This document shows positions 2,288 to 27,676 of a stretch of DNA of 32,585 nt, piece by piece. Positions within the stretch are counted from its first letter, which is position 1. Each line of letters begins with the position of its first letter. The translations under genes and the position numbers were made by a program. Location: IMG/VR virus record IMGVR_UViG_3300034037_000023, positions 1 through 32,585 of that record. One strand, given 5' to 3'. The notes under the pieces are model-generated. The model saw only the letters and a program-made list of their open reading frames with translations. It did no database searches and was not told the origin of the DNA. The DNA comes from a virus.

Positions 2288-4108
2288 ATGTCAAAACAAA
2301 TAAATTATTATAATAGAGATTTTCAATCAATACGTTCAGAACTTGTTGATTTCATTAGACAATATTATCCTGATATATTGAATGATTTTAACGATTCTTC
2401 TGTTGGTATGTTGTTTCTTGAATTAAATGCTGCGGTTGCAGATATGTTATCATTCCATACAGATAGAATGTTTCAAGAAACACAAATAGATTACGCAAAA
2501 GAAAAAAAATCATTGCTTTCAATTGCAAGAACATTTGGTGTAAAAATTCCTGGAAAAAGACCATCTGTTACTATTGCAGATTTTTCTGTTACTGTACCTG
2601 TTAATGGTGATAAATTTGATATAAGATATGCTCCTGTAATAAAAAGCGGGGCGCAGGTGTCTGGAAACGGTAAAATATTTGAAGTTTTAAATGATATTAA
2701 TTTTGCTTCACCTTTTACTACTGGTGGGATACCAAATAGATTAGTTATACCAAATTTTGATTCAAATGGAAATCTAATAAATTATACTTTAACCAAAAGA
2801 GAATTTATTGTAAATGGTGTAACTAAAATTTTTAAAAAAGTAATTACTTCTGAAGATGTTGTTCCATTTATGGAATTATTATTACCTGAAAAAGATGTAT
2901 TATCGGTAGAATCTGTTATTATAAAAAATGGGACTAACTTTAACACATTACCTTCATCAGATGAATTTTATGATGAAGATTTGAAATGGTATGAAGTTGA
3001 TTCGTTAGCTGAAAGTTTGGTATTTGTTGAAGATACTAACACCTCTTCTGGTTCTGAAGCTGGAATAAAAAATGGTACGTGGAAAAAAATAACAAAAAAA
3101 TTCATTACCGAATATACAGATAATGGATTTATGAAATTGATTTTTGGTGGGGGGAATGTTGATGTAAGCAATATGTGTGATTTTTATGATGATAAATCTT
3201 TAATTGATAAAATAGGCAATATTATAAATAACAAATCACTTGGGGAAATACCACCACCAAATAAAACAATTTTTGTTAAATATAGAGTTGGTGGTGGAAA
3301 ATCTTCAAACGTTGGTCCAAATACAATAAATTCTGTAGTAAGTGCTGATATTATTGTTAACGGACCAAATCAATCAGACAATAATTTAGTTAAGCGTTCA
3401 TTAAAAGTAAATAATCCAATTCCTGCAATTGGTGGTAAAGATGAAATGTCTCATGAAGAAATAAGAAATCTAATTAAATATAACTTTTCTTCTCAAAACA
3501 GATGTGTAACATTAAAAGACTATCTGGTAAGAATATCTTTAATGCCAGGTGAATTTGGTGTTCCGTTTAGAGTTAATGTTATTGAAGAACAAAATAAAAT
3601 TGCTGTTTATATTTTAACATTAAATTCAAGTGGTAAATTAAGCACAAAAATATCTAGCACAATTAAAGAAAATATTTCAAGATATTTATCAGAATTTAGA
3701 ATGATAAATGATTATGTGGTTGTGAAAAATGGTAAAGTAATAAATTTATCCTTTGAAATTGATTTGTTTATTGATAAAAATGTTCCACAAACTGAAATTA
3801 TTTCTAAAACAATAAATGAGGTGAAAAACTATTTTGATATAAATAAACATTATATGGGTGAAAACATATATATATCCCAACTTATTGAAAGAATAAATAA
3901 TATAAATGGGGTTTTAAATATTGTGGACATTAGAGCATTTAATAAAGTTGGTGAAGGGAAATATTCAATGGATGAAATTGCTCAACCATATATTGATGAA
4001 GAAAAAAAACAAATTGATATGTTGGGTGAATATACATTGTTTGGTGAACCTAATGCCATGTTTGAAATAAGATACCCAGAAATTGATATTAAAGTAAGAG
4101 TAAAATAA
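2288..4108 (+). CDS. gp6/Baseplate_J-like baseplate wedge protein
   Basis: The N-terminus has the typical opening of gp6-like wedge proteins: a tyrosine-rich start, YPDILNDFNDSSVG (about residues 27-40), then a helix with LELNAAVADMLSFHTDR, then KKSLLSIARTFGVKIPGKRPS. The C-terminal part has the Baseplate_J-type sequence LIERINNINGVLNIVDI (about 534-550). The length, 606 aa, is close to T4 gp6 (660 aa). In T4 this protein forms the ring of the baseplate that joins the wedges around the hub. It is the first gene of the long plus-strand structural block and is divergent from the gp25-like gene. In many contractile systems the gp25- and gp6-like genes are neighbours, which supports both calls. 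Confidence 0.9.
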   Translation: MSKQINYYNRDFQSIRSELVDFIRQYYPDILNDFNDSSVGMLFLELNAAVADMLSFHTDRMFQETQIDYAKEKKSLLSIARTFGVKIPGKRPSVTIADFSVTVPVNGDKFDIRYAPVIKSGAQVSGNGKIFEVLNDINFASPFTTGGIPNRLVIPNFDSNGNLINYTLTKREFIVNGVTKIFKKVITSEDVVPFMELLLPEKDVLSVESVIIKNGTNFNTLPSSDEFYDEDLKWYEVDSLAESLVFVEDTNTSSGSEAGIKNGTWKKITKKFITEYTDNGFMKLIFGGGNVDVSNMCDFYDDKSLIDKIGNIINNKSLGEIPPPNKTIFVKYRVGGGKSSNVGPNTINSVVSADIIVNGPNQSDNNLVKRSLKVNNPIPAIGGKDEMSHEEIRNLIKYNFSSQNRCVTLKDYLVRISLMPGEFGVPFRVNVIEEQNKIAVYILTLNSSGKLSTKISSTIKENISRYLSEFRMINDYVVVKNGKVINLSFEIDLFIDKNVPQTEIISKTINEVKNYFDINKHYMGENIYISQLIERINNINGVLNIVDIRAFNKVGEGKYSMDEIAQPYIDEEKKQIDMLGEYTLFGEPNAMFEIRYPEIDIKVRVK

Positions 4109-4403: not shown

Positions 4404-7400
4404 ATGGACAAAACCATAAGAATAAGAACAACACCAAATAGTTTTAAAAGTTCTAGTATTAGAGTAAATATTGAACAAGATTTTGATTTTATACAAATTT
4501 TATCTCTTAATATTTCTCAAAATGAGGCTTATAGAAGGTTTTGTTCAGATTATGGTGTTGTAGTTGGTAGGGTGATAATGAATGGTGGTGTTGGTGTTCC
4601 TAATGCAAAAGTTTCTATATTTGTAAAGGCATCTGAATATGATGATTTGGATGATGAAATAAAAGAACTTTATCCATATGAAACCCCTTTAGATAAGAAT
4701 GATGATGGAATCATATATAATTTGTTACCAAAAAATCAAAAATTTGAATGTCATACTCCAATAGGCTCATTCCCCGATAAAAGAGAGATTTTGGATGTTG
4801 ATAAATATTCTGATGTATATTGTAAATATTATAAATATACTTCCGTAACAAATGAAGCTGGTGATTTTATGATATTTGGTGTTCCTGTAGGGGAACATAA
4901 TATTGTTTTTAACGTTGACATATCAGATATTGGAATTTATTCTCAAAGACCTTATGATTTAATAAGGGAAGGTTCACCAAAAGAAATTTTTGAAGGTACA
5001 ACTCAATTTAAAAGCTCAAAAGAATTATTGACATTACCTCAATTCAAATCAAATATAACTTCTGTAAATGTAATTCCTTTTTGGGGTGATAAATCAAATT
5101 GTGAAATCGGTATAACAAGAATTGATTTCGATACAAAAATAAAAATACAACCAAGTGCTTTATTTATTGGTTCTGCAATAACAGATAGTCATAAAAATTC
5201 AGTAAATAAAAGGTGCAGACCAAGAAAAAAAACAGGTTATATATGTGATATGACCACTACACCTGGAAGTATAAATATTTTAAGAAAAACTGTTGATGGT
5301 GGTGTTGAAGAAATATCAATAGATGGTGGAAGGGTTATAAATGATGATGGTGTTTGGGCTTTCCAAGTTCCAATGAATTTGGATTATATGGTAACAAATG
5401 AATTTGGTGAATTAGTTCCAAGTGAATCGCCGAATAAGGGAATACCTACAAGGGCAAAGGTTAGATTTAAAGTTGGTTTGGATATGGATGGTGGTGATGG
5501 TAGATTAAGAACAAGAGCATCTTATTTAGTTCCACATAATCCTAATACCATAAATGATGTTGATTACAATTTTAATGAAGAAACAAAAGAAGAAAATTTT
5601 AGAGATTTATATTGGAATAAAATATATACTGTTAAAAATTTTATACCAAGATTTCAAGCCACATCAGGTCATAATAAAAGAACTTTTATTGGTATAAAAG
5701 ATGTTGATGATTGTGTAGGAACAGCAAATCCATTTCCGTTTAATAGGATAGATTCAAAATTAAACCCATTGTTTTTAATACTTTGTATTATAATACAGAT
5801 AATATCATTTATTATTGTCTTTTTAAATTCTGTTATCTTTAAAATAATAAACTCTGTTTTTAAAGTTATAAATGATATATTAAAAGTAATTTGTAAAGTA
5901 ATATGGTTCATTGGTAAACTTGCTTGTTCAATTAAAAGTGGTAGTAAAAAATGCAATTGTAAAAAAAAGGCTTGTATAGGAGATGCTAATTGTGATTGTG
6001 GTGGTAACAATTCATGTGATTGTGATTGTAATAAAGATTATATTGATTATATAGGGTGTATTATAGTAAAATGTAATGATGAAACTTATGGTCCAGGATG
6101 TGAAAAGAGTTCGGATAAAATATCCCCATACAGAAATACAGACGACAAACCACAACATTATCCTGATGATGGACATCCAGGACATGGTGCAAATGAAACG
6201 TCTCCCAAAAAAGACGCTGGATGGGCATTTTGTTTATCAATACAATTAGCAGAAATTTTAGATGTGTGGAAATTTGATTTTTATAATGATTGGGTAAATG
6301 GGGTATTATATTTTCCTTTATTCAAGTATAAGAAAAATAAAAAGGGTAAAGAAAAGTTTTGTGAAAATAATTGTAGTGATTATGGTGATGGTGTAGATGG
6401 TAATAATGATAACATAGGAGATAATAAATGTAGAAATAATTATTTAGTTGACACTTGTACATCAGATGGTGCGGATTCAAATTTAAGCGATTTAATAAGA
6501 GATGGACTAATAAATAAACATAACGATACTTTATATTATTCACCAATATCACATAATGATAATTATAAATTATTAGCTACTGATTTAGTTATATTAGGTA
6601 GTATGTATGATTGTGATTGGCAAAATATATTAAAAATACATGACAGATTAAATATAACATCATATAAAACACCTGATTTATTAGATGAATATGATGGCAA
6701 TAAAGTTATAGTTAGTGGTTATGATTCAGCAAGCAATGATATAGCAGATTCCTTGTTTTTTAATTTAACATGTACAGGTATTGAAACAAATGCAAGAACC
6801 TGTGAGAATATTAAAAGAATTTGTGAAATTGGTGTAGGTCTTGATGAAGATAGAACAGACGAACCACCAAAATTAGGGTGTAATGGAAGTATGGGCATAG
6901 ATAGAGTTATTGATAATTGTGATGTTGATGATTTATTGATTAGAGATTATTTTGCATTACTTAATGAACCAAATTCAGGCATTGATTTATTAAACTTTAC
7001 TGATAGCAATAAACATGCATTGTTTAATTCTGTTGCTTATGAATTATACAGAGGTGTTAAAATAGGTATTATAAATCAACCATCAAATTCATTTTATTTT
7101 TATTTCGGTTTAAGACCAGGAAAAAGTGCATTGGATTTAATGAAAGAAAAATATTTTAATGATTGTAAGAGTCAAAATAAAACCAATATAACTGTTAATG
7201 CAGATATAAATCATGCAACTTCATCAACTTCTTGTGATGGTTCAATTTCATTAGAAATTATATATAGTTCAGGTTCTTATGATATTTCATGGGAAGGACC
7301 TGGTGGGTTTACATCAACTTCACAAAATATATCAAATTTATGTGAAGGTACTTATGTTTTAAAAATAATTACAAGTGATGGTAAGGTATTTACATATTCT

Positions 7401-8411
7401 TATTATATAAATGGTGGGCTACCATTATATTGTTTTTTAACTCCAGTTAATATAAGCAAACATGGTTTAAATGATGGAAAAATAATTGTTACAGATATTA
7501 GTGGTGGTGATGGTGGACCATATACATTAGAATTAAAAGATTATAATAATGGTAACATAATAAATACTACTACAGTTTCAAATAGTAATTCTTATACATT
7601 CACTAATTTACCAGCAGGAAATTATGAAGTAAATATTTATGATGTTAATAATAATTCTGTAAAATGTTCTCCAGCATTAGTTACAATAATAGAACCTGAT
7701 GAATTGATTATTGATGTCCAAAAAACAGATATAACGTGTTATGGAGCTAATGATGGTGAAATTTATTTAGATTATACAAGTGGTAATCCACCTATAACTT
7801 GGTCTATAACTGGACCAAATGGTTTTTCAAGTTCAAATACAAATTTATATGATTTAGAAGGTGGAACATATACAATAACAGCAACAGATTCTTTAAATCA
7901 AACAGTAACTCAAACAGTAAACATATCAGAACCACAACAAATTTCTCCTACTATTACATTTACAGATGTAACCTGTTATGGTAATAATGATGGTACAATA
8001 ACAATAAGTAATATAACAGGAGGAGTTCCACCATATACAATTGTGTTTGATTTTGGTCAAACCGAAACATTTAATGGAAGTCCTGTAGTATTTGATAATT
8101 TGGAACCAGGTGAATATGAAATTACAATAACAGATGATAATGGATGTGAAATCTATGCTACAATACCAATAAATGAACCTGGTCCAATATCTCCAGGTGT
8201 TACTACTAGTAGTGGAGATATAACAATATCCCCAAGTGGTGGACAAGCACCGTATGTGGTAAAAATATATGACAGTAGTAATAATCAAGTATATAGTAAA
8301 AACATTTATTCTGGTGGTAGTGATACATATACACCAAATTCAATCGGAACTTATACTGTAGAAGTAACTGATAATAACGGCTGTTCAGAAACAGTAAGTA
8401 TAATTGTATAA
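4404..8411 (+). CDS. Large tail/adhesin protein with carboxypeptidase-regulatory-like and SprB-like modules
   Basis: The protein (1335 aa) is modular. Near residues 48-70 and 150-175 it has the two halves of a carboxypeptidase-regulatory-like β-sandwich (GVVVGRVIMNGGVGVPNAKV; TNEAGDFMIFGVPVGEHNIV). Around 452-510 lies a strongly hydrophobic, helix-like stretch, followed by a dense cysteine patch (about 515-545) with CNC, CDC and CDCDC motifs. From about 925 to the end there are roughly five SprB-like modules. Modules 3 and 4 are the clearest, opening with TCYGANDG (C1112) and TCYGNNDG (C1191), then GGxPPYT, GxYxITxTD and ending in EP. SprB repeats are known from flavobacterial surface adhesins. 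The gene sits in the structural block, so a tail fibre or baseplate role is inferred. There is no obvious signal peptide. It overlaps the next gene by one base. Confidence 0.75.
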   Translation: MDKTIRIRTTPNSFKSSSIRVNIEQDFDFIQILSLNISQNEAYRRFCSDYGVVVGRVIMNGGVGVPNAKVSIFVKASEYDDLDDEIKELYPYETPLDKNDDGIIYNLLPKNQKFECHTPIGSFPDKREILDVDKYSDVYCKYYKYTSVTNEAGDFMIFGVPVGEHNIVFNVDISDIGIYSQRPYDLIREGSPKEIFEGTTQFKSSKELLTLPQFKSNITSVNVIPFWGDKSNCEIGITRIDFDTKIKIQPSALFIGSAITDSHKNSVNKRCRPRKKTGYICDMTTTPGSINILRKTVDGGVEEISIDGGRVINDDGVWAFQVPMNLDYMVTNEFGELVPSESPNKGIPTRAKVRFKVGLDMDGGDGRLRTRASYLVPHNPNTINDVDYNFNEETKEENFRDLYWNKIYTVKNFIPRFQATSGHNKRTFIGIKDVDDCVGTANPFPFNRIDSKLNPLFLILCIIIQIISFIIVFLNSVIFKIINSVFKVINDILKVICKVIWFIGKLACSIKSGSKKCNCKKKACIGDANCDCGGNNSCDCDCNKDYIDYIGCIIVKCNDETYGPGCEKSSDKISPYRNTDDKPQHYPDDGHPGHGANETSPKKDAGWAFCLSIQLAEILDVWKFDFYNDWVNGVLYFPLFKYKKNKKGKEKFCENNCSDYGDGVDGNNDNIGDNKCRNNYLVDTCTSDGADSNLSDLIRDGLINKHNDTLYYSPISHNDNYKLLATDLVILGSMYDCDWQNILKIHDRLNITSYKTPDLLDEYDGNKVIVSGYDSASNDIADSLFFNLTCTGIETNARTCENIKRICEIGVGLDEDRTDEPPKLGCNGSMGIDRVIDNCDVDDLLIRDYFALLNEPNSGIDLLNFTDSNKHALFNSVAYELYRGVKIGIINQPSNSFYFYFGLRPGKSALDLMKEKYFNDCKSQNKTNITVNADINHATSSTSCDGSISLEIIYSSGSYDISWEGPGGFTSTSQNISNLCEGTYVLKIITSDGKVFTYSYYINGGLPLYCFLTPVNISKHGLNDGKIIVTDISGGDGGPYTLELKDYNNGNIINTTTVSNSNSYTFTNLPAGNYEVNIYDVNNNSVKCSPALVTIIEPDELIIDVQKTDITCYGANDGEIYLDYTSGNPPITWSITGPNGFSSSNTNLYDLEGGTYTITATDSLNQTVTQTVNISEPQQISPTITFTDVTCYGNNDGTITISNITGGVPPYTIVFDFGQTETFNGSPVVFDNLEPGEYEITITDDNGCEIYATIPINEPGPISPGVTTSSGDITISPSGGQAPYVVKIYDSSNNQVYSKNIYSGGSDTYTPNSIGTYTVEVTDNNGCSETVSIIV

Positions 8412-10114
8412 TGGAAAATAAATTTAAATACATATTTGAAAGTTCAAAATCAAAGGAAAAAAGTGATATAAGCAAAAAGAACAAAATTATATTATCTTCA
8501 AAATCAAAATTATTACCATATTCTGAAATTAATAAAATAATAAGTCAAAGTGAACAATTTAATAAAGAAAGACAAGAATCATATAAATATAGGTTTACTT
8601 TTGATGTAACAACAATATTTTCAAATTGTTTAATGAACATTACTGGTGATAATAGTTTTGAGACTTTTATGGTTAATCCCTATTTTAGGGATAGGTCATA
8701 CCCACCAAATACAGTTGATTTTGATGAGGAAGAAGATATTACTTATAAAGAAGCAATAGAACAAAATTTAAAAGAAGTTGATGGGTGGTTTGGTTATCTA
8801 GACCCAAACATAGGATCAACAGATGGTTGTAAATGGAACGACATGTATCCATCTAGAAATCATTTTGAAATAAATCCAACAAATTGGGATTTGGCTATCA
8901 CATATCCCGATTATAACAAAACAATTGATTTAATTGATGGTGGAATAATAATTATTGAATCAACACAATTAGAGATAGGTGGGAAAACAGTATATCAATT
9001 TGCAACGCCAATAAAACATAATTTATTACCTGGAGATACTGTGAGATTGAAAAATTTACTTGATAATAGTAAAGATGGTATTTATACTGTTTTTAAAATA
9101 GGAAATGAAAAAAATGAACTTAGTGATTATTTCTTTTCAATTGAGATGGAAGGTGGTGAAATATCAAACAACTCAAGAATGGTTAGAATTTTTAGAGGTG
9201 AGGAATCAACATATTATGCCAGAATGTTTAAAAAAATACCAATAGTTAACGGATATGTTGATACTGATAAATTTTTAATAAATAAATTATCTTTTTCAAA
9301 AAATATTTTTAATGATGTAAATTATCATTTTTTATTAAATTATGATATTGATTTAGCTAATATAAGAGATAATTTAAACAGACCAATTTCAGAATTATAT
9401 TTTACATTCATAAAAAAAAGAAGTAATTTTAATGATGGTAATGGTGATATGTTTACGGAAATAAAATCTGGTATTGAAGCACCATATATACCATCAATGA
9501 TAAATTTTCCAAATATAATACCTGATATACATAGAATACATAATGGTTCATCACCAATTCCACATGTGTCATTAGAAACAAATGTAGATATAAGTAACAC
9601 ACACTTTTTTGGTGATATTGTAGAATATAACAGGTTTGAGGTTAAAGAAACTGTTTTGGCTGAAGTTATGCATAGATTTAACACAAATAATAGAATACTT
9701 GGTGGAACTATTACTGATCTTACAGGTGCTGAAAGCTCAATTACTGTATCACCAAGATATGAAGGATATTATTATAAACCTCATCATTTAATTAAAATTA
9801 GAGAATTTTCAAATTATGTGGAACAAGGTGATGAATCTACATATGGAATACCTGATTATGCTGAGGACTTGGGAGATGGTAGATGGTTATGGAGAGATTT
9901 ATTAGATTTAGGTATATCTGACACTAGCAATAAACCATTAGATTACCCATTTATAAATGGAAGGCATTATATACATAAAAAAATATGTTTATTATTAAAA
10001 AGACAAGACCCTAATGGATTATATGGGTTATATTCAGATGAGTTTCCATCTGATCCAAGAGGATATGTATTAAGTGATAAATTTAAAGTAAATAAAAGCA
10101 GTGAAATATGTTAA
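8411..10114 (+). CDS. Hypothetical virion structural protein
   Basis: I do not recognise this 567-aa protein. The first 70 residues are lysine- and serine-rich and look disordered or helical. From about residue 60 it is a globular sequence rich in aromatic residues, Asp and Asn, consistent with β-structure, with no signal peptide or membrane segment. The start codon overlaps the stop of the preceding gene (TAATG), and its own end overlaps the next gene by 7 bases, so it is translated with its tail-gene neighbours. By position it could be a baseplate wedge or connector protein. That role is inference only. Confidence 0.6.
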   Translation: MENKFKYIFESSKSKEKSDISKKNKIILSSKSKLLPYSEINKIISQSEQFNKERQESYKYRFTFDVTTIFSNCLMNITGDNSFETFMVNPYFRDRSYPPNTVDFDEEEDITYKEAIEQNLKEVDGWFGYLDPNIGSTDGCKWNDMYPSRNHFEINPTNWDLAITYPDYNKTIDLIDGGIIIIESTQLEIGGKTVYQFATPIKHNLLPGDTVRLKNLLDNSKDGIYTVFKIGNEKNELSDYFFSIEMEGGEISNNSRMVRIFRGEESTYYARMFKKIPIVNGYVDTDKFLINKLSFSKNIFNDVNYHFLLNYDIDLANIRDNLNRPISELYFTFIKKRSNFNDGNGDMFTEIKSGIEAPYIPSMINFPNIIPDIHRIHNGSSPIPHVSLETNVDISNTHFFGDIVEYNRFEVKETVLAEVMHRFNTNNRILGGTITDLTGAESSITVSPRYEGYYYKPHHLIKIREFSNYVEQGDESTYGIPDYAEDLGDGRWLWRDLLDLGISDTSNKPLDYPFINGRHYIHKKICLLLKRQDPNGLYGLYSDEFPSDPRGYVLSDKFKVNKSSEIC

Positions 10115-10932
10115 ATAGATATAAATTAAATTTAAATAAATTAAAAAGCGATTATATAAACTTTAAAATACCAATAATTCAAAATGAAGATTGGTATGGT
10201 CAAGCTGAAATATTGGAAAAAGATTTTATTTCAGTAGAAGTTGAAAAAGCAATAAATCCTATTGTTGATTATGAAAAATATAGGTTTATACCAACAAATA
10301 ATAATGGTGATGTAGATAAAATATCGTATTATTTAAATTTATTAGACGATAATGGTAATTTAATAAACCACACCACATATGACATTGAAGGGTTTACATA
10401 TGGGGATTTAAGATATAATAAAAACAAATTTAAACGTTCTTTTTTAAGATTAATGTTTTTTGATAGTGATGATGTAACAAATCAAAACTTTTTATTTCAG
10501 ACAATAATATATTGCAGATTATATGATTCAGATATTATTAAACCACAGCAAGGAGTATTGTCATCAGCATTGGATTCAAATAAACCAAAACCATTGCAAC
10601 AAATACCAATAAGATTTATTGTTGGTGATTCAAGTAAAAATAGTGATTTATTATCTGATGGATATTATATTTTATATAATAAAAAAGATTTACCATTGGA
10701 TTTATTTATGAGAGCAACATGGAATAATGCATCAAATGGTAAAACAAAAAATTTATCTACAAGTAATACGAAACTTGAAATAAATGAAATAAACAAGTCA
10801 TTATTTATGAAATTTACTTTAAAAGAAGATAATAATAAATTATATTATTTAATTGATGAAACATATTCAAATAATATAACATATTCCAATAATGAATATA
10901 TTATTGAATTATACGAAGTTCAAGTTAAATAA
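10108..10932 (+). CDS. Hypothetical virion structural protein
   Basis: The 274-aa product has no family that I can name. It reads as a soluble, mostly β-rich protein with no membrane segment or signal peptide. A line such as ISYYLNLLDDNGNLINHTTY suggests paired strands. It overlaps the preceding gene by 7 bases and shares one base with the next start (TAATG). This places it in a translationally coupled set of tail genes, probably as a baseplate or adaptor component. Confidence 0.55.
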   Translation: MLNRYKLNLNKLKSDYINFKIPIIQNEDWYGQAEILEKDFISVEVEKAINPIVDYEKYRFIPTNNNGDVDKISYYLNLLDDNGNLINHTTYDIEGFTYGDLRYNKNKFKRSFLRLMFFDSDDVTNQNFLFQTIIYCRLYDSDIIKPQQGVLSSALDSNKPKPLQQIPIRFIVGDSSKNSDLLSDGYYILYNKKDLPLDLFMRATWNNASNGKTKNLSTSNTKLEINEINKSLFMKFTLKEDNNKLYYLIDETYSNNITYSNNEYIIELYEVQVK

Positions 10933-11738
10933 TGGATATAAAACGTTATAAAATATCAATAGAAGATTTAATCACTCGTGAGGGTGGTGGATTTTATGGT
11001 TCAATTGATAAAGAATATGTAACATTTAAAATTTTATTAACACAAAATATAAATGATGTTGGTTATTATTCTCATGATAATTATTTAACAACACAAGTAA
11101 ATTATGATGTTTTAATTGATAAGTTATCTCAAAGTGGTATTACATTTGGATTTTTTAACAATCCAATATATGTTTTTAATTATAGTGGTTTTACAGGTGA
11201 TACTAGAATAGATTTTTCAACGCCGCAAAAATATTTTGCTGAAGGTGATGAAATAGCATTAACAAGTGAGAGTAGATTATCTGAAGTAAGAACAATAAAA
11301 TCAAATTCACCATATATTGTTGGTTTCGATGTTAAAAAAGAAGTTTATTATAATTATAAAAATGATTTAATAAACGGTGTAAATAGAGTTATTTCAATAA
11401 GTGGTGATGTAATAGAATATGTTATTGATGCCAATGATGATTCAAATATCGGAACTGACCAACAAAAAGGTGGGTTTAGACTGGTAAAACTTGATGATGG
11501 AACAACAATAATAAGATACAAATCAGAAGGTTGGAACGATACAAATACAGATATTAAAGCAATTTTTAAAGAAGAATATTTAATGAATATAAGTGAAGAA
11601 CCAGAAGTTAAAAGTGATGTATTTATAGATAGAGGTGAGAATAGTGTATTTGAATATCACTTATCATTAGTAGATGTTAAGAGTTTAGAACATTTAGAAT
11701 TATTTGGTAACGGTTTTTTTAATATAAATAAAACATAA
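10932..11738 (+). CDS. Hypothetical virion structural protein
   Basis: This 268-aa protein is unrecognised. It starts MDIKRYKISIEDLITREGGG and continues with alternating hydrophobic and polar residues and many Gly, Asn and Asp turns, as expected of a β-rich virion protein. No catalytic motif, signal peptide or membrane segment is visible. The start overlaps the preceding stop by one base, and the next gene begins only 4 bases after its stop. The function is inferred only from its place between gp6-like and fibre-like genes. Confidence 0.55.
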   Translation: MDIKRYKISIEDLITREGGGFYGSIDKEYVTFKILLTQNINDVGYYSHDNYLTTQVNYDVLIDKLSQSGITFGFFNNPIYVFNYSGFTGDTRIDFSTPQKYFAEGDEIALTSESRLSEVRTIKSNSPYIVGFDVKKEVYYNYKNDLINGVNRVISISGDVIEYVIDANDDSNIGTDQQKGGFRLVKLDDGTTIIRYKSEGWNDTNTDIKAIFKEEYLMNISEEPEVKSDVFIDRGENSVFEYHLSLVDVKSLEHLELFGNGFFNINKT

Positions 11739-11742
11739 AAAT

Positions 11743-12639
11743 ATGGCAACAGGAACATTTGGAACAGTAAGACCAGCAGACGTTGAGTTAACAGACGTTG
11801 AGGTTATTGTATATTATACACCATCAAGAACCTCTACAGAAAGTCCTACAATAACAAAATTATCTGGGGATCAAGTTTTATCAAAAATAGAAAACCCCAA
11901 TGGAAATGGTATTGAATTAATGGGAGGTTTATATGATTTGAAAATACCAACCACAATATTTAATGCTATTGGAATTTATAATATCTACATAAGACCAGCA
12001 GAAATAAGAACAAGAATTGTTGATTGTGGAGTATTAGCAACATCTCCTAATGTTAAAGGTCTAGTATTTGATTTAAATGAAATACCAAATAATTTTGTGA
12101 ATAAATTCCAAAATGGTAATTTGGTTGGATTTAGAATAGAATACCTTAATGGAGAAGGATTAAAAATACCAAATCTTTTTAGAATTGTTACAAGTAATAA
12201 TAAATGTGAACCAGTAAATCAAAATTTAACAAATAGCAACCAAAAAGCAATAAGGTATAGATTTAATGATAGTTCTTCATTGGTGTTTTGTACTTTAACA
12301 CCTTCTTCTACAAGTAATGTAAAGCCAAATGCAGTTCCTTTTATTGGTAATCCTAATCAAGATGTTATAATAACAAATACATATTTTAACCCATTACTTC
12401 TTGAAGTTGAAATAGTTGAACATGATATTGAAACATTGGCATATGCCTTATATGGAAATCAAACTAAATCTCTTGAAGATGGAATATATACAATATATAA
12501 TTTTGACAATGAGATTTATAGACAATATAATTTATATGAAATAAAAGATGAATTTACAGGAAAACCATTGTTTGAAGTTAAAGAACAAAAATTAGATATT
12601 GACTTTAATAAAGGTTTTGATGATATTACAAATGTTTAA
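11743..12639 (+). CDS. Hypothetical virion structural protein
   Basis: A 298-aa protein starting MATGTFGTVRPADVELTDVE. The N-terminal half looks like an Ig-like or fibre-type β-domain (strands around EVIVYYTP and YNIYIRP). The C-terminal part is more acidic and ends near KGFDDITNV. No enzyme motif, signal peptide or hydrophobic segment is seen. It lies 4 bases after one structural gene and 6 bases before the 1098-aa protein. It could be a tail-sheath-end, wedge or fibre-adaptor protein, but I cannot decide between these. Confidence 0.55.
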   Translation: MATGTFGTVRPADVELTDVEVIVYYTPSRTSTESPTITKLSGDQVLSKIENPNGNGIELMGGLYDLKIPTTIFNAIGIYNIYIRPAEIRTRIVDCGVLATSPNVKGLVFDLNEIPNNFVNKFQNGNLVGFRIEYLNGEGLKIPNLFRIVTSNNKCEPVNQNLTNSNQKAIRYRFNDSSSLVFCTLTPSSTSNVKPNAVPFIGNPNQDVIITNTYFNPLLLEVEIVEHDIETLAYALYGNQTKSLEDGIYTIYNFDNEIYRQYNLYEIKDEFTGKPLFEVKEQKLDIDFNKGFDDITNV

Positions 12640-12645
12640 TAGGTA

Positions 12646-15600
12646 ATGGGAAAAGTAAAAATAGTAGGATACGCACAAAGAGTTTTTTTTGATGATGGTA
12701 TAGAATATAGAAATTTTTCTGACGATTTAGTCGGAAACCAAATATCATCAAAAGAAAGCCAATCTTTGTTTACTTTTGGAAATTTTTTGATTGTCCCATC
12801 ACCTACTGAAAAGACTGAAAAACAATATCTTACAAGGAAATTTAGCAGTTTTGTAACTTTAAGTGATATTAATTTAGATGAGAAGTCAATTGAGATAGTA
12901 AATAATGAATTTTCTTCAGTAAAATTAAATTACGATAATTCAATATTAACAAATTATTCTTATTTCAGCTCAATGGCTGAAATGGTAAGAGTTTCATTGG
13001 AAAATATAATAATAAATTATCCTGCATCTTTATATATAAAAAACACCAATGATTTTACTAATCAAACATATCAAACAATAGAAGATTATAATTATGATAT
13101 AACTACTAATAAATCTACTTTTAAAATAAATGTCGGGGCAATATCAAATAAATTTTTAATAAGTTATTTGGAAAATGGCAATCCATTAGCTAAGTATAAT
13201 GAAAATAATGAATTAAGAAATCTTAAATTATCATATGGTAAATTTGTCGTAGATTATAGTGGTAAAACATATAAAATTCTTTCGTTTACAGGATCAAGTG
13301 ATGCATCATCTGGTTATGTATATTTTGAGGTTGAAGGAAATATTAATGATGGAAATATAAATAATACCTTAAACTATCATATAAGACCAAATGATGTGGA
13401 AATAGATAAATTTTTCATGTCATTAAATGATTTTGAAGCTACCTTATTAAATAGGCATACAATTCCAAAATATACAGCAGAATTTAATATATTAAAAAGG
13501 TCAAATGATGGTAGAATAATTAGAAGTAAAGAAAAATTAACTTGGAATACAAGTGATGGGTATAATATTGACTATGATTCTCCTGAATATATTTCATATG
13601 TTAAAAAGTTAATGGAGATTTCAGAAAATTATGATTCATTTAAAACAGATTTAATAAAAAGATTTTTAGTACCAAAATCTATAACTGAATTTGATAGTAT
13701 AAGAACTTGTGATGGTGAAGTAATAATTTCAGAAAGTCAAAAAATAAATAAATTATTAAACATTTATGGTGTTGAATTTGATAAAATAAAAAGATATATT
13801 GATTCCATATCTTATGCTTATACTGTTACATATAATAAAAAAGATAATGTTCCCGATAAATTTATAAAAAACATATCAAAAGCTCTTGGATTTTATAATA
13901 TTAACTTTTCAAATGAAAATAATTTATTAAATTATTTGTTTAATAGAGAAGAACCTGAATTTTCTGGACATTCGGTTGGATATACTTTAAAAGAAAAGGA
14001 AATTGAATTTTGGAGAAGATTAATATTAAATAGTAGTTGGTTGTGGAAATCAAAAGGAACAAGAAAAGCAATTGATTTTATATTAGATTTTTTTGGGATA
14101 CCAAGAGGGTTAATTGAGTTTAACGAATATGTATATAAAGCCAAAAATAAAATAGATATTGATACTTTTAAAAAAGTTTTATCTGAATTAAAATTAAACG
14201 ATGATTTAAATGATTATTTTGTTGATGATGAAGGTTACCCTAAATTAAAATCAGATTCAATTGACGATTATTTCCAAAATAATGGTTTATGGTATAGAGA
14301 AACTGCTGGAGATAATACAAATTTTAATATACTTGAAGGTAATAACCCCCATGTGGGAGAATATGATGGTGGTTATAAATATTTTGAAAAATTGAGATGT
14401 TTAATAAATGATTTTTCTCCAGTAATGATAAAAAATGAGGATATTGAAGAATATTCTCAAAATATTTTTGTAAATTATAATAGTGGATATGTAAATGATA
14501 CTTCATCAACAGATGTATATTTAGATGTAGTTAATACAGATGGTGTTGATTTATCTGATGTTGTGTTGGTAAGCGGTGAAATAATAGATGATCCGAAGCC
14601 AACTGTGGAAACAACGGATTGTGGGTGTGAAACTGGTTCAATAGACAGGTCTATTAAAATAGATGTTGTTACAAAAAAAGAAGATATAAGTGAAGGTGTA
14701 AATGATTGTCCATATACTGGTTTCACGTTTGATTCAAATGGTTATGTAATATTTAATTTATATGATGGTACAAACACAACTTTTATATCAAATCCACAAT
14801 GTTGTGAAGTTTTGGGATTTACATATTTTGCTGAAAGTGATACTTCTTGTTGGTGGGATGAAAATATGATACCTACTGGACCTTGTAGTGGATTATCTCC
14901 ATCATCAATTGATGAAAAAGGTTTTGTTATTTGGGTTGATGAAAACAACACAAATACATATATAGTTGATAGTAGTGAATGTTGTTCTAAAAATGGATAT
15001 TTAACATTTGTTGATAATGGTCAAACATATTGTTATGTTGGTTGTGATTCTTATAAACCAGTATCCGTAGATAAAGAAACAGGTGTGGTTACGTTTGTTG
15101 ATCCTTTAGGTAACACAACAATATATATTAGTAGTGAATGTTGTTCTTATGGTGGATATAGTTCTGCTAGTGATGACAATGGCAATTATTGTATAGATAC
15201 TTCAACATTAACAGGTTCAAAATGTGGAACATTAGTACCAAGTGATGTAAGTAGCGATGGAATTATATTATTTATGGATACTACAAATAAAGCAACAACA
15301 AATTATGTTATTAATGCTGAATGTTGTGGAGAGTATGGATTTGATGTTGATTATACTCAAAAAGCAGGAATAAGATGTAAATTATCTTGTAATCAATATT
15401 CTGTTGACAGTGTAGATCCGAATACTGGTATTGTAACTTTTGTAGATATATATAAAAATAGTTATGATTCAATTCCTTCGGAATGTTGTACAGCTAAAGG
15501 TTATTCAGTAACAAATGTAAAAGGAGTTGATTATTGTGTAGACGATACTGTTGTTGTTAATCAAGATGGAGATGGGAGCGGAGAACCACCACCATCCTGT

Positions 15601-15942
15601 GGAAATTATGTGGCATATGGTTCAGATGAACAAGGTTTAGTATTTTGGATAGATAATTCAACAAAAAATGTAACAGAATTTGTTTCACAAGATTGTTGTA
15701 ATTCTAATGGATTTATAGCTGGTAATACTGGTGGTGGTAATTTCGTTTGTAGTTTGGATTGTAAACATTATACTTATTATTCTACTGATCCAAACACGGG
15801 TTATATAACGTTTATTGACATTTTTGGAACAAGAAGAGAAGAATTTACTCCTGAATGTTGTTCTTACTTTGGATATAATTATGAAACGGATGAGTTTGGA
15901 ATAACAAGATGTAAATCAAGTACTGGTAATGCAGCATTATAA
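12646..15942 (+). CDS. Large tail protein with a gpI-like segment and seven C-terminal Cys-Cys repeats
   Basis: The protein (1098 aa) has two parts. Around residues 455-493 a segment containing SSWLWKSKGTRKAIDFILDF and then FGIPRGL resembles the conserved helix of tail protein I (P2 gpI-like) baseplate proteins. This is a weak family match. From C688 to C1089 it carries seven units of about 55-60 aa, each with the spacing C-x(30-32)-CC-x(14-16)-C. Inside each unit a strand such as GVVTFVD or GFVIWVD lies before the CC pair, and GY or GF follows it. Four cysteines per unit suggest disulfides or metal binding. An eighth copy opens the next gene. The role is probably baseplate-to-fibre attachment or receptor contact, inferred from context. 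Confidence 0.7.
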   Translation: MGKVKIVGYAQRVFFDDGIEYRNFSDDLVGNQISSKESQSLFTFGNFLIVPSPTEKTEKQYLTRKFSSFVTLSDINLDEKSIEIVNNEFSSVKLNYDNSILTNYSYFSSMAEMVRVSLENIIINYPASLYIKNTNDFTNQTYQTIEDYNYDITTNKSTFKINVGAISNKFLISYLENGNPLAKYNENNELRNLKLSYGKFVVDYSGKTYKILSFTGSSDASSGYVYFEVEGNINDGNINNTLNYHIRPNDVEIDKFFMSLNDFEATLLNRHTIPKYTAEFNILKRSNDGRIIRSKEKLTWNTSDGYNIDYDSPEYISYVKKLMEISENYDSFKTDLIKRFLVPKSITEFDSIRTCDGEVIISESQKINKLLNIYGVEFDKIKRYIDSISYAYTVTYNKKDNVPDKFIKNISKALGFYNINFSNENNLLNYLFNREEPEFSGHSVGYTLKEKEIEFWRRLILNSSWLWKSKGTRKAIDFILDFFGIPRGLIEFNEYVYKAKNKIDIDTFKKVLSELKLNDDLNDYFVDDEGYPKLKSDSIDDYFQNNGLWYRETAGDNTNFNILEGNNPHVGEYDGGYKYFEKLRCLINDFSPVMIKNEDIEEYSQNIFVNYNSGYVNDTSSTDVYLDVVNTDGVDLSDVVLVSGEIIDDPKPTVETTDCGCETGSIDRSIKIDVVTKKEDISEGVNDCPYTGFTFDSNGYVIFNLYDGTNTTFISNPQCCEVLGFTYFAESDTSCWWDENMIPTGPCSGLSPSSIDEKGFVIWVDENNTNTYIVDSSECCSKNGYLTFVDNGQTYCYVGCDSYKPVSVDKETGVVTFVDPLGNTTIYISSECCSYGGYSSASDDNGNYCIDTSTLTGSKCGTLVPSDVSSDGIILFMDTTNKATTNYVINAECCGEYGFDVDYTQKAGIRCKLSCNQYSVDSVDPNTGIVTFVDIYKNSYDSIPSECCTAKGYSVTNVKGVDYCVDDTVVVNQDGDGSGEPPPSCGNYVAYGSDEQGLVFWIDNSTKNVTEFVSQDCCNSNGFIAGNTGGGNFVCSLDCKHYTYYSTDPNTGYITFIDIFGTRREEFTPECCSYFGYNYETDEFGITRCKSSTGNAAL

Positions 15943-15953
15943 AATTTTGTAGT

Positions 15954-18800
15954 ATGGCAAATGATTGTAAAGACATATTTGGAAATATTATAGAAACAGT
16001 ATCTTTTGGTGAAGATGGGATTGTTTATGGAATTGATTCAGATGGCAACAATAATCCCATTGGTAAAGAATGTTGTAATTCATTAAATAAAAATTGGAAT
16101 GAAGCTACTGGTAGGTGTTATTGGTCTGATGTTTCAAATAATTTTCCATATAAAATAAATGTAAACTCTACATACAACGATGGTTCTTTGTTCGATGTTG
16201 ATGAAAATGAAGATTGTTATTTGGAAATTTCTTTTGATTTTATGGTTTCTATAGATTGTAATAATATTTTGAATTATGATAATTGTTTAGAGGCTTTAAA
16301 TGATATAAAAATATCATCAACAGTAGATTTATATAGAGAACCAAATGAAGGGGAAACACCTATAGGAAATTATGTAGTAGAAGAAGTATATGAAGAAGAA
16401 ATAATAAATACTGGTATTTTTTCAGAATATATTATAGACAATTGTGAAACTGGAATATTATTAACAGGAGATACTAATTGTATTAAGAATGTAAAATCAT
16501 GTATAAAAAATGAATTAGGTGAAAATTGTAAATATTTAGAGGATTGTACATTAAATTCTGAATGGATTAGTAAAACATTTAAAATTTCAGATAAAGGAAT
16601 AATTGATAAAATTAAAAATAATAAAATAAAATTATCATTAAAAGTTTATAATTCAAATATTGATATTTCCATTTTAATAGATAAAGTTGTTATTGAAAAA
16701 AAATGCTTAGTAGATAATAGTACTACAAATTTTATAAGTAAATGTATTGGGTTTGAATTAGAAAAGACTGTTGATAACAAAAAATCTTGGGTAGATGTTG
16801 ATATTAAAACAATAAGAGATTATGATTTTATAAATAGAGAGACAAAATATACATTAAACAATGAGAAACAAATTCTAAACAGTAAAGAGATTGATTTGGT
16901 TTTATGTGGGGCTAATGGTATTGAATATGATTTATATTGTTATGTTTTGGAAAATAATGATTTAATCGGTTGTTCATTGGGATATAAGCCTGGATGTATT
17001 GTTGGTGAATTATCCCCTGAAAAAACAGAATGTTTATATATTGAATCAACAGACCCGACATTGAATGGGACCCCATATCTTGCAGTTGATGGTGATAAAT
17101 ATTCACAATATAATTATTATGGTGCAGTTTTTTTAGGCAATATAACAGAAAGACCAAAACCATTAAAATTTAGTGGATATACAGGTCAAGCAGGTTCTTA
17201 TTCAGGAACTAATTTTGTGGTTGATGGAAATCTTGAAGTTGTAAATGCTGTTGTTGGTGGACCTGGAACTGGTAGTACTTATTATGGACCACCCACAATA
17301 AGAAATTCCTTATGGGGAGATGGGTTATCAGTTAATCACGGTAGATTAAACGCTGCTGGAATAAAAGCACAAGGAAACCCAACTCAAGAATGGATTGGAT
17401 TTTCTTTTTGTATTGATTTACCAAAAACTGGTGTATATAATATTGCATTGTCTGCGGATGATAGATTTAGGTTAAAAATAAATGGTGAATTGGTATTTGA
17501 TTCATTACCACATTCAAGATTAGCACCATATACATCACCAAACTTATCACTTTTTATGCAACATGTTTGGATATTTGAATATTATCTTAAAAGTGGTAAG
17601 AATATTATTGAAATGGAATATTATAATGTAACTTCTATTGCTGGAATGTGTGCTGAAATATATGATGCTACAATAGATCAATTATCTGGAATGACAAGCG
17701 AATCAGAGTTATCTGGAGTAACAGTATTTAGCACAAAAGACTATATAAATGATTATTTTCAGTTAGGTAGTGTTAACGGATATTCTTGTCCTACTGGTTA
17801 TTCATTGGACACTTGTGATCCGAATGATTTTAAATGTACAAAAATAATAAGAGATGATGTTGATTTAATAGCATCTGATTGTAATGGATGTAATGAAGGA
17901 TATTGTGGAGATTCTGGGATTGATTTATCCAAATTATTGGAATTTGAAATTAATGATATAACTAATTTTTATGAATTTAAAGAAAACATAATATCCAATT
18001 TAATTGATGTTAGGAATAGGAAAACAATAAAATCATATCCAACCATTAAATTGTTATATGAAAGATATTTAAATAGTTTTTCTGGAACTGTGGAAAGTAA
18101 TGCATTTACTTATGAAAGTATTGAAAAAATTATTGATAAAATTAATAATAATTGGATTGATTTAGTTGAGGAAGTAATGCCTTCCACTGCAATATGGAAC
18201 TCTGTAATAAAATATAGAAACGGATTTTTTGATTCACCTAAATTTAATTATAAAAAATATACAATTTTTACATGTGAAGAAAGTGATTATGTAGAATATC
18301 CAAGTAGTTTAACAGGTGTTACTACTGGTGTTACCACATATGTTTATGATGGAAAAATTATAGATGTTTGTGATGAAGAAAAAGAAATACCAAGCATATG
18401 TGAAGAAATAAACATTAAACAATTTAATGTTGGTTCTGAATTTATCGGAAAAATTAGAATATTGAAAAATGGTGAAGGGGTTTTAAATGAATGCGATTTA
18501 TTAATATCTGATTATAAAATTAATTCAGATATATCAAATGGTAGCATTGATTTAACACCAACATATGTCGGAGGTACAGCACCATATTCATTTAATTGGT
18601 CAATAAATTCAAAAACAGGAAACTTTAGTGATTGGGAAATTGTAAGTGGCACTGAAAATAATGAAACTGTTACTATTAGTGGAACATCATTTACTGAAAT
18701 AACTCAATCAGATTCTATTGAAATAGAAGTAACTGTTACAGATACCAACAATTGTACATCTAATAAAATAATAACTATTGATTCAAATACACAAATATAA
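15954..18800 (+). CDS. Tail fibre/adhesin-like protein with Cys-Cys repeat, PA14-like region and SprB-like end
   Basis: The 948-aa product begins with one more copy of the Cys-Cys repeat of the previous gene (C5, C40-C41, C55). The middle (about residues 400-585) resembles a PA14-type carbohydrate-binding β-barrel: a long glycine-rich lead-in, then GVYNIALSADDRFRLKINGE near 485-505 and LKSGKNIIEMEYYN near 542-555. The last 100 residues look like a PKD or SprB-like module (GGTAPYSFNWSI). It has many cysteines overall. No signal peptide is present. The gene lies between two structural genes and its stop overlaps the next start by one base. I infer a receptor-binding or fibre protein, with PA14 likeness judged by eye only. 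Confidence 0.65.
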   Translation: MANDCKDIFGNIIETVSFGEDGIVYGIDSDGNNNPIGKECCNSLNKNWNEATGRCYWSDVSNNFPYKINVNSTYNDGSLFDVDENEDCYLEISFDFMVSIDCNNILNYDNCLEALNDIKISSTVDLYREPNEGETPIGNYVVEEVYEEEIINTGIFSEYIIDNCETGILLTGDTNCIKNVKSCIKNELGENCKYLEDCTLNSEWISKTFKISDKGIIDKIKNNKIKLSLKVYNSNIDISILIDKVVIEKKCLVDNSTTNFISKCIGFELEKTVDNKKSWVDVDIKTIRDYDFINRETKYTLNNEKQILNSKEIDLVLCGANGIEYDLYCYVLENNDLIGCSLGYKPGCIVGELSPEKTECLYIESTDPTLNGTPYLAVDGDKYSQYNYYGAVFLGNITERPKPLKFSGYTGQAGSYSGTNFVVDGNLEVVNAVVGGPGTGSTYYGPPTIRNSLWGDGLSVNHGRLNAAGIKAQGNPTQEWIGFSFCIDLPKTGVYNIALSADDRFRLKINGELVFDSLPHSRLAPYTSPNLSLFMQHVWIFEYYLKSGKNIIEMEYYNVTSIAGMCAEIYDATIDQLSGMTSESELSGVTVFSTKDYINDYFQLGSVNGYSCPTGYSLDTCDPNDFKCTKIIRDDVDLIASDCNGCNEGYCGDSGIDLSKLLEFEINDITNFYEFKENIISNLIDVRNRKTIKSYPTIKLLYERYLNSFSGTVESNAFTYESIEKIIDKINNNWIDLVEEVMPSTAIWNSVIKYRNGFFDSPKFNYKKYTIFTCEESDYVEYPSSLTGVTTGVTTYVYDGKIIDVCDEEKEIPSICEEINIKQFNVGSEFIGKIRILKNGEGVLNECDLLISDYKINSDISNGSIDLTPTYVGGTAPYSFNWSINSKTGNFSDWEIVSGTENNETVTISGTSFTEITQSDSIEIEVTVTDTNNCTSNKIITIDSNTQI

Positions 18801-25970: not shown

Positions 25971-26100
25971 TGTGAACTACCCACCCACGCCAGAGGCGAT
26001 GGGTTGGGCTTCAGGAGTCAACACTCCCACCAACGTGGGCAGTTCGTCCTGATTTTTCCTATCCGTTCCAGATAAGATATTTTTTAAGGCAAAAGATTTT
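25971..26100 (-). ncRNA. Probable ωRNA (reRNA) at the tnpB 3' end
   Basis: In TnpB systems the guide RNA comes from the 3' end of tnpB and the element's right end. Here that stretch holds the right-end hairpin (25980-26008) plus two short perfect stems, GGAGT/ACTCC (26014-26027) and CCCAC/GTGGG (26026-26039), both with CAAC loops. The two share bases and cannot form together. The guide would be the flanking minus-strand sequence just beyond 25971, which starts with a run of T and then AATTCC. The 5' boundary is a guess. Confidence 0.5.
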
Positions 26101-27149
26101 ATGTTACAAGCAGCTAAAATATCTCTATCGTGTGTAGTTCCACAAGACTTACAAGTCCACTCTCTGTCGGATAGTTTTAAGTCCTTGTTGATTACTCCGC
26201 AGGAGCAAGTCTTTGATGATGGTGCAAATCGCCCTATTCGTAGGATATTTTTACCATACCATTCAGCCTTGTATTCTAACATAGAGACAAAAGTTGACCA
26301 ACTTGCATCACTAATAGATTGTGCTAAATTGTGGTTTTTAACAATATTCTTTACAGCTAGAGTTTCAAGTGCTATCGTTTGGTTCTCACGAATTAGTTTA
26401 GTTGAAACTTTGTGTAAAAAATCTTTGCGCTTGTTTACTACATCTTCGTGTAGTTTGGCAAGTTTCTTTTTAGTACGCTTACCTTTGTGTTTTGAATATT
26501 TACGTTGTACATATTTTAATTTACTTTGTGCTTTACGTAGGTATTTTGGATTTTCAAAAACTTCACCTTTTGATGTAATTGCAAAGTCTTTAATTCCTAA
26601 GTCGATACCAATAGTCGTACTTTCGGTTATTGATGCTTTAGTTGGTATTTCTTCTTTAGTATCACAAAGAATAGAAACAAAGTATTTACCTGTTGGTGTT
26701 CTTGATATAGTTGCTGATTTAATTACACCTTTGGTTTCTCTATGTAATACAATATCAATTCCCTCTTTAAATTTAGGAATGATTAACTTCCCATTCTCTA
26801 CAATTACATTTTGTGGGATATGGAATGATTGTTTACCGCTTCTTTTAGATTTATATTTAGGAAAGTTCCCTTGTCCTTTGTAAAATCTTGTGAAAGCATT
26901 ATCCAAATTTCTTATTGGTGCTTGTAATGATTGAGAATTAATTTCTTTTAACCAAGTACATTCTTTCTTTAAATCTGGCAATTGTTTGATTAGGTCAAAA
27001 CAAGATAGGTTTATTTGATTACCAGCGTAAGCCATTGTTTTGGTCTCCAACGCAAGGTTATACACAAACCTTGAACTACCAATATGCTTATTGATTAGTT
27101 CGGCTTGTGCCTTCGTAGGTGAAATTCTATATTTAAATGACTTCAACAT
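25977..27149 (-). CDS. tnpB: TnpB, RNA-guided endonuclease of IS605 family (OrfB)
   Basis: The 390-aa protein has the full TnpB layout. The N-terminal part opens with FKYRISPTKAQAELINKHIG, typical of the OrfB helix-turn-helix region. The RuvC nuclease residues are D183 (GIDLGIKDFA), E262 (IALETLAVKNIV) and D341/D343 (THDRDILAACNI). A zinc ribbon lies between the last two, with C315, C317, C333 and C336. Length agrees with known TnpBs (about 400 aa). TnpB cuts the empty donor site guided by ωRNA and so helps keep the element in place after TnpA excises it. All motifs are intact, so it may be active. It is divergent from tnpA, and its last codons overlap the presumed ωRNA. Confidence 0.95.
   Translation of the reverse strand: MLKSFKYRISPTKAQAELINKHIGSSRFVYNLALETKTMAYAGNQINLSCFDLIKQLPDLKKECTWLKEINSQSLQAPIRNLDNAFTRFYKGQGNFPKYKSKRSGKQSFHIPQNVIVENGKLIIPKFKEGIDIVLHRETKGVIKSATISRTPTGKYFVSILCDTKEEIPTKASITESTTIGIDLGIKDFAITSKGEVFENPKYLRKAQSKLKYVQRKYSKHKGKRTKKKLAKLHEDVVNKRKDFLHKVSTKLIRENQTIALETLAVKNIVKNHNLAQSISDASWSTFVSMLEYKAEWYGKNILRIGRFAPSSKTCSCGVINKDLKLSDREWTCKSCGTTHDRDILAACNIKSFALKNILSGTDRKNQDELPTLVGVLTPEAQPIASGVGG
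25980..26008. repeat. Right-end hairpin of the IS element
   Basis: CCCACCCACGCC (25980-25991) pairs with GGCG-A-TGGG-T-TGGG (25995-26008), leaving single-base bulges at 25999 and 26004 and an AGA loop. This gives 12 base pairs in a GC-rich stem within AT-rich DNA. It is the imperfect counterpart of the left-end hairpin and should be the structure bound by TnpA at the right end. Confidence 0.85.
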
Positions 27150-27229
27150 ATATTATTAAATACGTACAAATATACAAAAAGTTGCTTTCATTTTAAAGTT
27201 TTTTTATTTTTTCTGTAAAATGCCGTTCA

Positions 27230-27278
27230 ACATATTGTAAAAGTTTCCGTCTTCGGGTAAAAAACTTCCACAATATGT
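27230..27278 (+). promoter_or_regulatory. Long inverted repeat that buries the tnpA start codon
   Basis: ACATATTGT (27230-27238) pairs with ACAATATGT (27270-27278), and inside it AAGTTT (27241-27246) pairs with AAACTT (27262-27267), separated by a 2x2 internal loop. A small CCG/CGG stem can form in the apical part. The tnpA ATG (27275-27277) lies in the outer stem. Translation would be blocked unless the stem opens, as is known for IS200 tnpA, whose mRNA leader hides the ribosome site. Confidence 0.7.
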
Positions 27279-27676
27279 CTCACTACATCAGTACAAATCG
27301 TTCAAAACATTACTTAAAATGTCATTTAATCTTAGTAACCAAGTATCGTAGAAATATCTTAGTCGGTCAGTTAAATGATGATTTAAAAGATATATTCAGT
27401 TCCATAGCTGATAATTCAGATTTTGAAATTGAAGTTATGGAAAGCGACATTAATCACGTACATTTCTTAATTAGGTATATACCACGTATATCTGTTTCTC
27501 AATTAGTCCGTAGGTTAAAACAAGAATCTACTCGTCAGTTATGGCTGTTACATCATACTACATTACGTCAATATTATTGGTATCAGCGTCTCTTATGGAG
27601 TGATGGTTATTTTGTCTGTTCAATAGGTGAAGCATCACCAGAAACAATACGTCAGTATATCTTATCACAAGGTTAG
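27275..27676 (+). CDS. tnpA: TnpA, Y1 HUH transposase of IS200/IS605 family
   Basis: The 133-aa protein is of normal length for the family. It has the HUH metal-binding motif H61-V-H63 (HVHFLI) and the catalytic tyrosine Y128 in SPETIRQYILSQG near the C-terminus. CHLILVTKYRRNIL near residue 16-29 is the usual N-terminal strand and basic stretch, and RRLKQESTRQLW is the helix following the HUH core. It cuts and joins single-stranded DNA at the hairpin ends, moving the element without target duplication. It is divergent from tnpB, with 125 bases between the two start codons. Its start codon lies inside a stem, so expression is probably kept low. Confidence 0.95.
   Translation: MSHYISTNRSKHYLKCHLILVTKYRRNILVGQLNDDLKDIFSSIADNSDFEIEVMESDINHVHFLIRYIPRISVSQLVRRLKQESTRQLWLLHHTTLRQYYWYQRLLWSDGYFVCSIGEASPETIRQYILSQG

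Follow-up and report, generated by a model that had tools for sequence, protein, structure and literature searches.

A cysteine-rich repeat domain as a candidate adjustable strap between a baseplate protein and its adhesin in large uncultured phages

In known baseplates, receptor-binding proteins are attached to the BW3 subunit, exemplified by T4 gp7 and P2 gpI (PMC10811340). In the Agrobacterium phage Milano, disulfides cross-link baseplate and receptor-binding proteins, and these bonds must be broken for contraction (PMC10811340). The locus described here, in which an array of cysteine-containing units lies between a putative baseplate protein (p1) and a putative adhesin (p2), was compared with both systems. 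The DNA analyzed (hereafter the window) is a 32,585-nt stretch with 25% GC; it comes from a large phage with a T4/P2-type baseplate gene and covers part of its tail module. The same phage is represented by a 64,152-base IMG/VR contig, with 100% identity over the 19,294 bases compared. The upstream anchor of the tail module is a gp6/gpJ-like baseplate wedge protein (2288 to 4108, + strand), and a glycosyltransferase gene (Glyco_tranf_2_5; 222 to 1766) is found just upstream of the module. A second Cys-rich structural protein (4404 to 8411; 1335 aa, 41 cysteines, no CC) carries SprB repeats and ends in a weak match to a T9SS sorting domain. Further along, a complete-looking IS200/IS605 unit (25977 to 27676; 33% GC versus 25% for the window) has been inserted in this large phage and encodes a Y1 transposase (+ strand) and a TnpB-like protein with a Cas12f1-like TNB domain (- strand). 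A protein matching the cyclic-phosphate processing receiver domain (cREC_REC) is encoded at 30322 to 31272.

No Shine-Dalgarno site was found for any of the 26 genes in the window. The absence of such sites points to a Bacteroidota host; the window phage and its relatives probably infect Bacteroidota. For other large aquatic phages, too, hosts of this phylum have been predicted (PMC9723584, PMC12619734). The sole match to the family in genome_contigs was a Prochlorococcus single-cell assembly (QCKH01000004.1, locus L205); this phage may have been co-sorted with the cell or infecting it, and its host is uncertain.

The protein p1 is encoded by an open reading frame of 1098 aa (12646 to 15942). 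Its core (residues 1 to 619; 12646 to 14502, + strand; WRRLILNSSWLWKSKGTRKAIDF) belongs to a conserved tail/baseplate protein and contains a segment resembling P2 gpI. At the profile level, this core is clearly homologous to protein WWT39511 of the Microcystis phage Mel-JY01 (probability 96) and weakly similar to a 1265-aa protein of the Flavobacterium phage immuto (probability 22). These two proteins occupy a similar position downstream of gp6, and with 5 and 9 cysteines, respectively, and no CC, they are cultured relatives without the array. Against a nine-member P2 gpI profile, the p1 core gave a sub-threshold match (probability 40, E = 3e-4, reversed control 0.3), and the alignment fell exactly at the conserved segment R-x2-I-x2-...-KGT-x2-A. 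The conserved segment of the BW3 proteins P2 gpI, T4 gp7, and pyocin PA0619 thus aligns with the p1 core, but below significance; P2 gpI used alone as a single sequence gave no match to p1, and Tail_P2_I was not among the reported Pfam matches. The gene order, with a gp6/gpJ-like gene upstream, then p1, and an adhesin-like gene directly downstream, is similar to J-I-H of P2, except that six extra genes separate the gp6-like gene from p1. Moreover, P2 gpI is several times smaller than p1, and the Cys-repeat tail is a feature of p1.

The downstream gene encodes p2 (15954 to 18800; 948 aa). Residues 60 to 253 (16131 to 16712, + strand) are predicted to form a beta-sandwich similar to carbohydrate-binding modules (CBMs), with a middling score (Z of ~6). 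Further downstream on the + strand are a PA14 match (17418 to 17504; 25.4 bits, cut-off 24) and an SprB-repeat-like stretch that scored below the cut-off (18534 to 18602). In the p2 proteins of the relatives L011, L034, and L052, a coiled-coil-like insertion of ~150 residues, absent from the window, was seen in the predicted beta-sandwich region. Given the PA14 match and the CBM-like sandwich, we infer from sequence and structure prediction that p2 is a putative adhesin paired with p1. The gpI match, the gene order, and the attachment of receptor-binding complexes to BW3 together favor a reading of p1 as BW3-like and p2 as the adhesin, and p1 is thus probably a baseplate-periphery subunit of the P2 gpI/T4 gp7 type.

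The C-terminal end of p1 is made up of exactly seven Cys units with the spacing C-x(30,31,31,32,31,31,31)-CC-x(14,15,15,16,15,16,16)-C, and the first-pass annotation, which had described seven units of C-x(30-32)-CC-x(14-16)-C ending a 1098-aa protein and an eighth opening the next, was exact to the base. All units are on the + strand and start with their first cysteine: unit 1 at 14707 to 14850, unit 2 at 14884 to 15033, unit 3 at 15043 to 15192, unit 4 at 15223 to 15378, unit 5 at 15388 to 15537, unit 6 at 15598 to 15750, and unit 7 at 15760 to 15912. A CGC motif (residues 659 to 661; 14620 to 14628, + strand) precedes them, as it precedes the array in most relatives. The family pattern in the window comprises C-x~31-CC-x~15-C with four near-invariant cysteines per unit, a G-[VI]-x-F hairpin, and CC-x3-G-[YF]. 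When the 439-residue tail of p1, with its 29 cysteines, was shuffled 20,000 times, no shuffled version contained more than one unit, compared to the seven observed. Similarly, the DNA motif for CC-x3-G-[YF] occurs seven times in the window, always inside the array, against 0.13 occurrences expected.

The units of p1 are unequal, and the linkers between them alternate between long and short, with CC-to-CC distances of 60, 53, 61, 54, 70, and 54 residues. By alignment scores, units 2, 4, and 6 form one class (class 2) and units 3, 5, and 7 another (class 3), a grouping that ranked first among ten possible splits (difference 28.4, against 7.6 for the runner-up); unit 1 stands apart in a class of its own. 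Unit 1 of the window matches, and is orthologous to, unit 1 of relatives with three units, units 3, 5, and 7 match their unit 3, and units 2, 4, and 6 match their unit 2, with the exception that unit 4 aligned best with one unit 3. From these alignments, the window array reads as 1-(2,3)-(4,5)-(6,7)|8, and the simplest history would be that of a three-unit array in which the 2-3 pair was duplicated twice.

Nothing significant was found for the units in profile and sequence searches of Pfam, PHROGs, NCBIfam, and the PDB, which bears out the earlier statement that no family was known for them. A match to a named family or relatives lacking the cysteines had been put forward as findings that would speak against the array; neither occurred, and close relatives keep the cysteines. 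Judged by its sequence, the unit is a real family without a name or description in the databases searched. AlphaFold2, run on 19 aligned arrays, modeled units 1 to 3 with a pLDDT of 89, and each of these units was predicted to open with two strands and a bridge strand, followed by a short helix that starts at the CC and by two more strands. No fold stood out when the array was searched against the PDB (best Foldseek E-value 0.21; best VIA-align Z-score 2.2). In BFVD, there were weak matches to phage proteins of ~1000 aa, some of them nameless, and two of these (A0A516L644 and A0A6J7X1V0) probably belong to the same family. Weak matches to DUF903 (PF06004), diapausin, LTP_2, and WW were rejected as short, confined to a single member, or driven by composition. 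For diapausin (PF08036), the profile matched only 2 of the 19 array members and 1 of the 7 p1 members, and the short local likeness presumably lies at CC-x3-G...C; DUF903, which scored below the cut-off, shares one beta-hairpin stretch with the unit. Neither of the two agrees with the unit in fold or over its full length.

The gene boundary (15940 to 15956, + strand) consists of the p1 stop codon TAA (15940 to 15942), 11 bases, and the p2 start codon ATG (15954 to 15956). Unit 8 (15966 to 16118, + strand; C-x34-CC-x13-C) opens p2. Its relationship to the array was evident when the p2 N-termini were compared with three-unit arrays (profile-profile probability 96, E = 5e-9), and residues 1 to 57 of p2 are predicted to have the same secondary-structure elements as the array units. 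The opening unit is near-universal among relatives, with one unit at the start of 90 of 93 distinct p2 N-termini, and it is an orthologous class of its own. A programmed frameshift at the boundary was also considered; p2 lies in a different frame from p1, and this frame is open back to ~15930, but no slippery heptamer was seen before the p1 stop.

A DNA search pattern made of two CC motifs in succession first brought up relatives in IMG/VR; many of the loci that it picked up were chance matches. Profiles of p1 and p2 subsequently identified at least 471 p1-encoding and at least 529 p2-encoding loci in IMG/VR, many of them on contigs of 100 to 369 kb. Among cultured phages, no match to the p1 or p2 of the window was found, and only Mel-JY01 matched a relative. 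Layout classes were counted over 101 non-redundant p1 relatives. The majority (75/101), L054 with its one typical unit among them, end p1 in a Cys-rich stretch equivalent to roughly two diverged units; this majority tail aligned weakly with the array profile (probability 70). Two to seven typical units end p1 in seven relatives (the window, L011, L024, L037, L052, L137, and L145), and in another ten the units are borne by a separate gene between p1 and p2. Three relatives (L181, L187, and L192), forming one clade with a support of 100, have no p1 tail, three (L162, L163, and L164) have p1 and p2 fused, and the remaining three (L021, L101, and L205) fell outside the automatic classes, with L205 being fused on reading. 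In L108 and L110, p1 ends in a long low-complexity TPTPTRTP repeat followed by a small domain (L110, 9974 to 13120).

Both cores were found in one open reading frame in L161/L163/L195, L162, and L205. The single protein of L162 and L163 contains the p1 core, three units, and the p2 core in that order, and L205 is similar with longer spacers. The L205 protein (5950 to 14043 of QCKH01000004.1; 2698 aa) also has one unit inside its p2 part. Because the units run continuously between the cores in such fused relatives, the array and unit 8 can be regarded as parts of one p1-p2 linker, and on this comparison of sequences the stop and start of the window fall inside that linker. These fusions are also what could favor a recent break of a single, longer gene through newly arisen stop and start codons, as the first-pass annotation had suggested. 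Fusion in related phages, which it had proposed looking for, was indeed found in some relatives; nearly all others keep the boundary, however, and since this boundary and the distinct class of the opening unit are old, present in nearly all relatives across a deep tree, and p2 has its own start in each relative, we regard a recent break as hardly tenable.

Loss of the units was also informative. The L181/L187/L192 clade has a p1 tail of only ~57 to 60 aa with two cysteines, and its p2 starts without the unit; the fused L164 has neither the p1 tail nor the p2 unit. On the p1 tree of the relatives, which is unrooted and places the window p1 on a long branch, the p1 tail and the p2 unit appear to have been lost together in two events (the clade and L164). 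A further relative, L129, retains a degenerate p2 unit. Such joint loss, seen in two lineages, would fit an interlocking of p1 and p2 through like domains, the other suggestion of the first-pass annotation, which is possible.

We then considered the state of the cysteines. In the diverged tails of 62 relatives, the two cysteines of the pair A4+1/cgc1 were both present in 59 and both absent in 3, and never occurred apart. Four losses of the cysteine cgc2 fell on well-supported branches; in these, B2 was lost as well in 3.6 of the 4 on average and never changed the opposite way. With so few independent events, the sign test on paired loss gave p = 0.125. These data concern the majority tail, and the cysteines of the window's own units never vary. 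In the p2 unit of L129, C1 and the first cysteine of the CC were lost together and the rest of the unit was kept. Pairwise loss fits disulfides, since a metal site made of four cysteines should lose all four, and we infer two intra-unit disulfides per unit, tentatively joining C1 to the first cysteine of the CC and the second cysteine of the CC to C4. Alternatively, the four cysteines of a unit might serve as metal ligands, for zinc or an iron-sulfur cluster, which would fit their near-invariance and the assembly of virions in a reducing cytoplasm. Metal binding is distinctly unlikely given that relatives lose cysteines in pairs and not in fours, that two can go with the rest of the unit staying in place, as in L129, and that a unit, with its CC and far-off single cysteines, shows no CxxC knuckle of the usual kind. 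Any disulfides in the virion would form late, because synthesis is cytoplasmic. Thioredoxin was encoded in seven and glutaredoxin in all of the eight records examined; such genes are usual for large phages and hence carry no weight as evidence for disulfides.

The searched records, of 64 to 369 kb, had units in three places alone: p1, the gene between p1 and p2, and p2. This confinement to the p1-p2 junction, together with the natural fusions, the conserved boundary, and the correlated loss, argues for a linker, and we consider it more probable than not that the array and unit 8 form a modular, disulfide-stabilized linker between a baseplate-periphery protein and its adhesin. Each unit of ~50 residues would form two beta-hairpins around a short helix, held by the two intra-unit disulfides, and a string of units would give a stiff, protease-resistant strap whose length could be tuned by the copy number. 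The last unit sits at the start of p2 and the remainder at the end of p1 or on the small protein between them. Like units, such as unit 7 on unit 8, would probably stack across the chain boundary and thus form the p1-p2 joint, and in fused relatives units of this kind run unbroken from core to core. The fuller proposal, that of a new disulfide-stabilized repeat domain serving as an adjustable baseplate-adhesin strap, in which like units of two proteins stack across chains, which is lengthened by duplication of unit pairs, and which exists in fused, two-gene, and three-gene states, is one we put forward tentatively and hold to be more doubtful as a whole. The array could itself be the host-binding adhesin, made of stacked disulfide modules that differ in copy number and surface from host to host. 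Its two to seven copies, the strong sequence divergence between units, and its location in a part of the tail rich in adhesins, where a PA14 match occurs, would suit such a function, but the units lie between the p1 and p2 cores in every layout and never at a free end, growth in the window was by duplication of an internal pair, and better candidate binding domains are present in p2, so that we find this rather unlikely.

The repeat is a building block common to hundreds of uncultured phages and offers a testable account of adhesin attachment, with naturally fused, split, and relocated versions allowing a comparative test of the linker role and paired cysteine loss predicting specific disulfides. 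It also adds a likely example of disulfide chemistry in virions built in a reducing cytoplasm, a feature of which Milano is among the few known cases. By analogy with Milano, the units might act as a redox-released lock, in which disulfides hold the tail shear-proof or safe and reduction at the host surface permits contraction; in Milano, the disulfide cross-links of the baseplate and receptor-binding proteins have to be broken for the tail to contract (PMC10811340), and the Cys-rich part of the window is likewise at the presumed baseplate-adhesin junction. However, most bonds of the Milano network link separate chains of sheath and baseplate proteins, whereas self-contained repeated modules here point to intra-unit bonds, which makes such a lock quite improbable. 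With Milano, the locus shares a contractile tail, a cysteine-rich attachment between the baseplate and the receptor-binding proteins, and, presumably, virion disulfides despite cytoplasmic assembly. It differs in that no repeated modules have been described for Milano, where the cross-links join sheath and baseplate chains, whereas the window has a repeated domain of ~50 residues, in variable copy number, between two tail proteins. The baseplate-adhesin junction is a place of a known type, and virion disulfides were already known from Milano; what is new here is the repeat domain.
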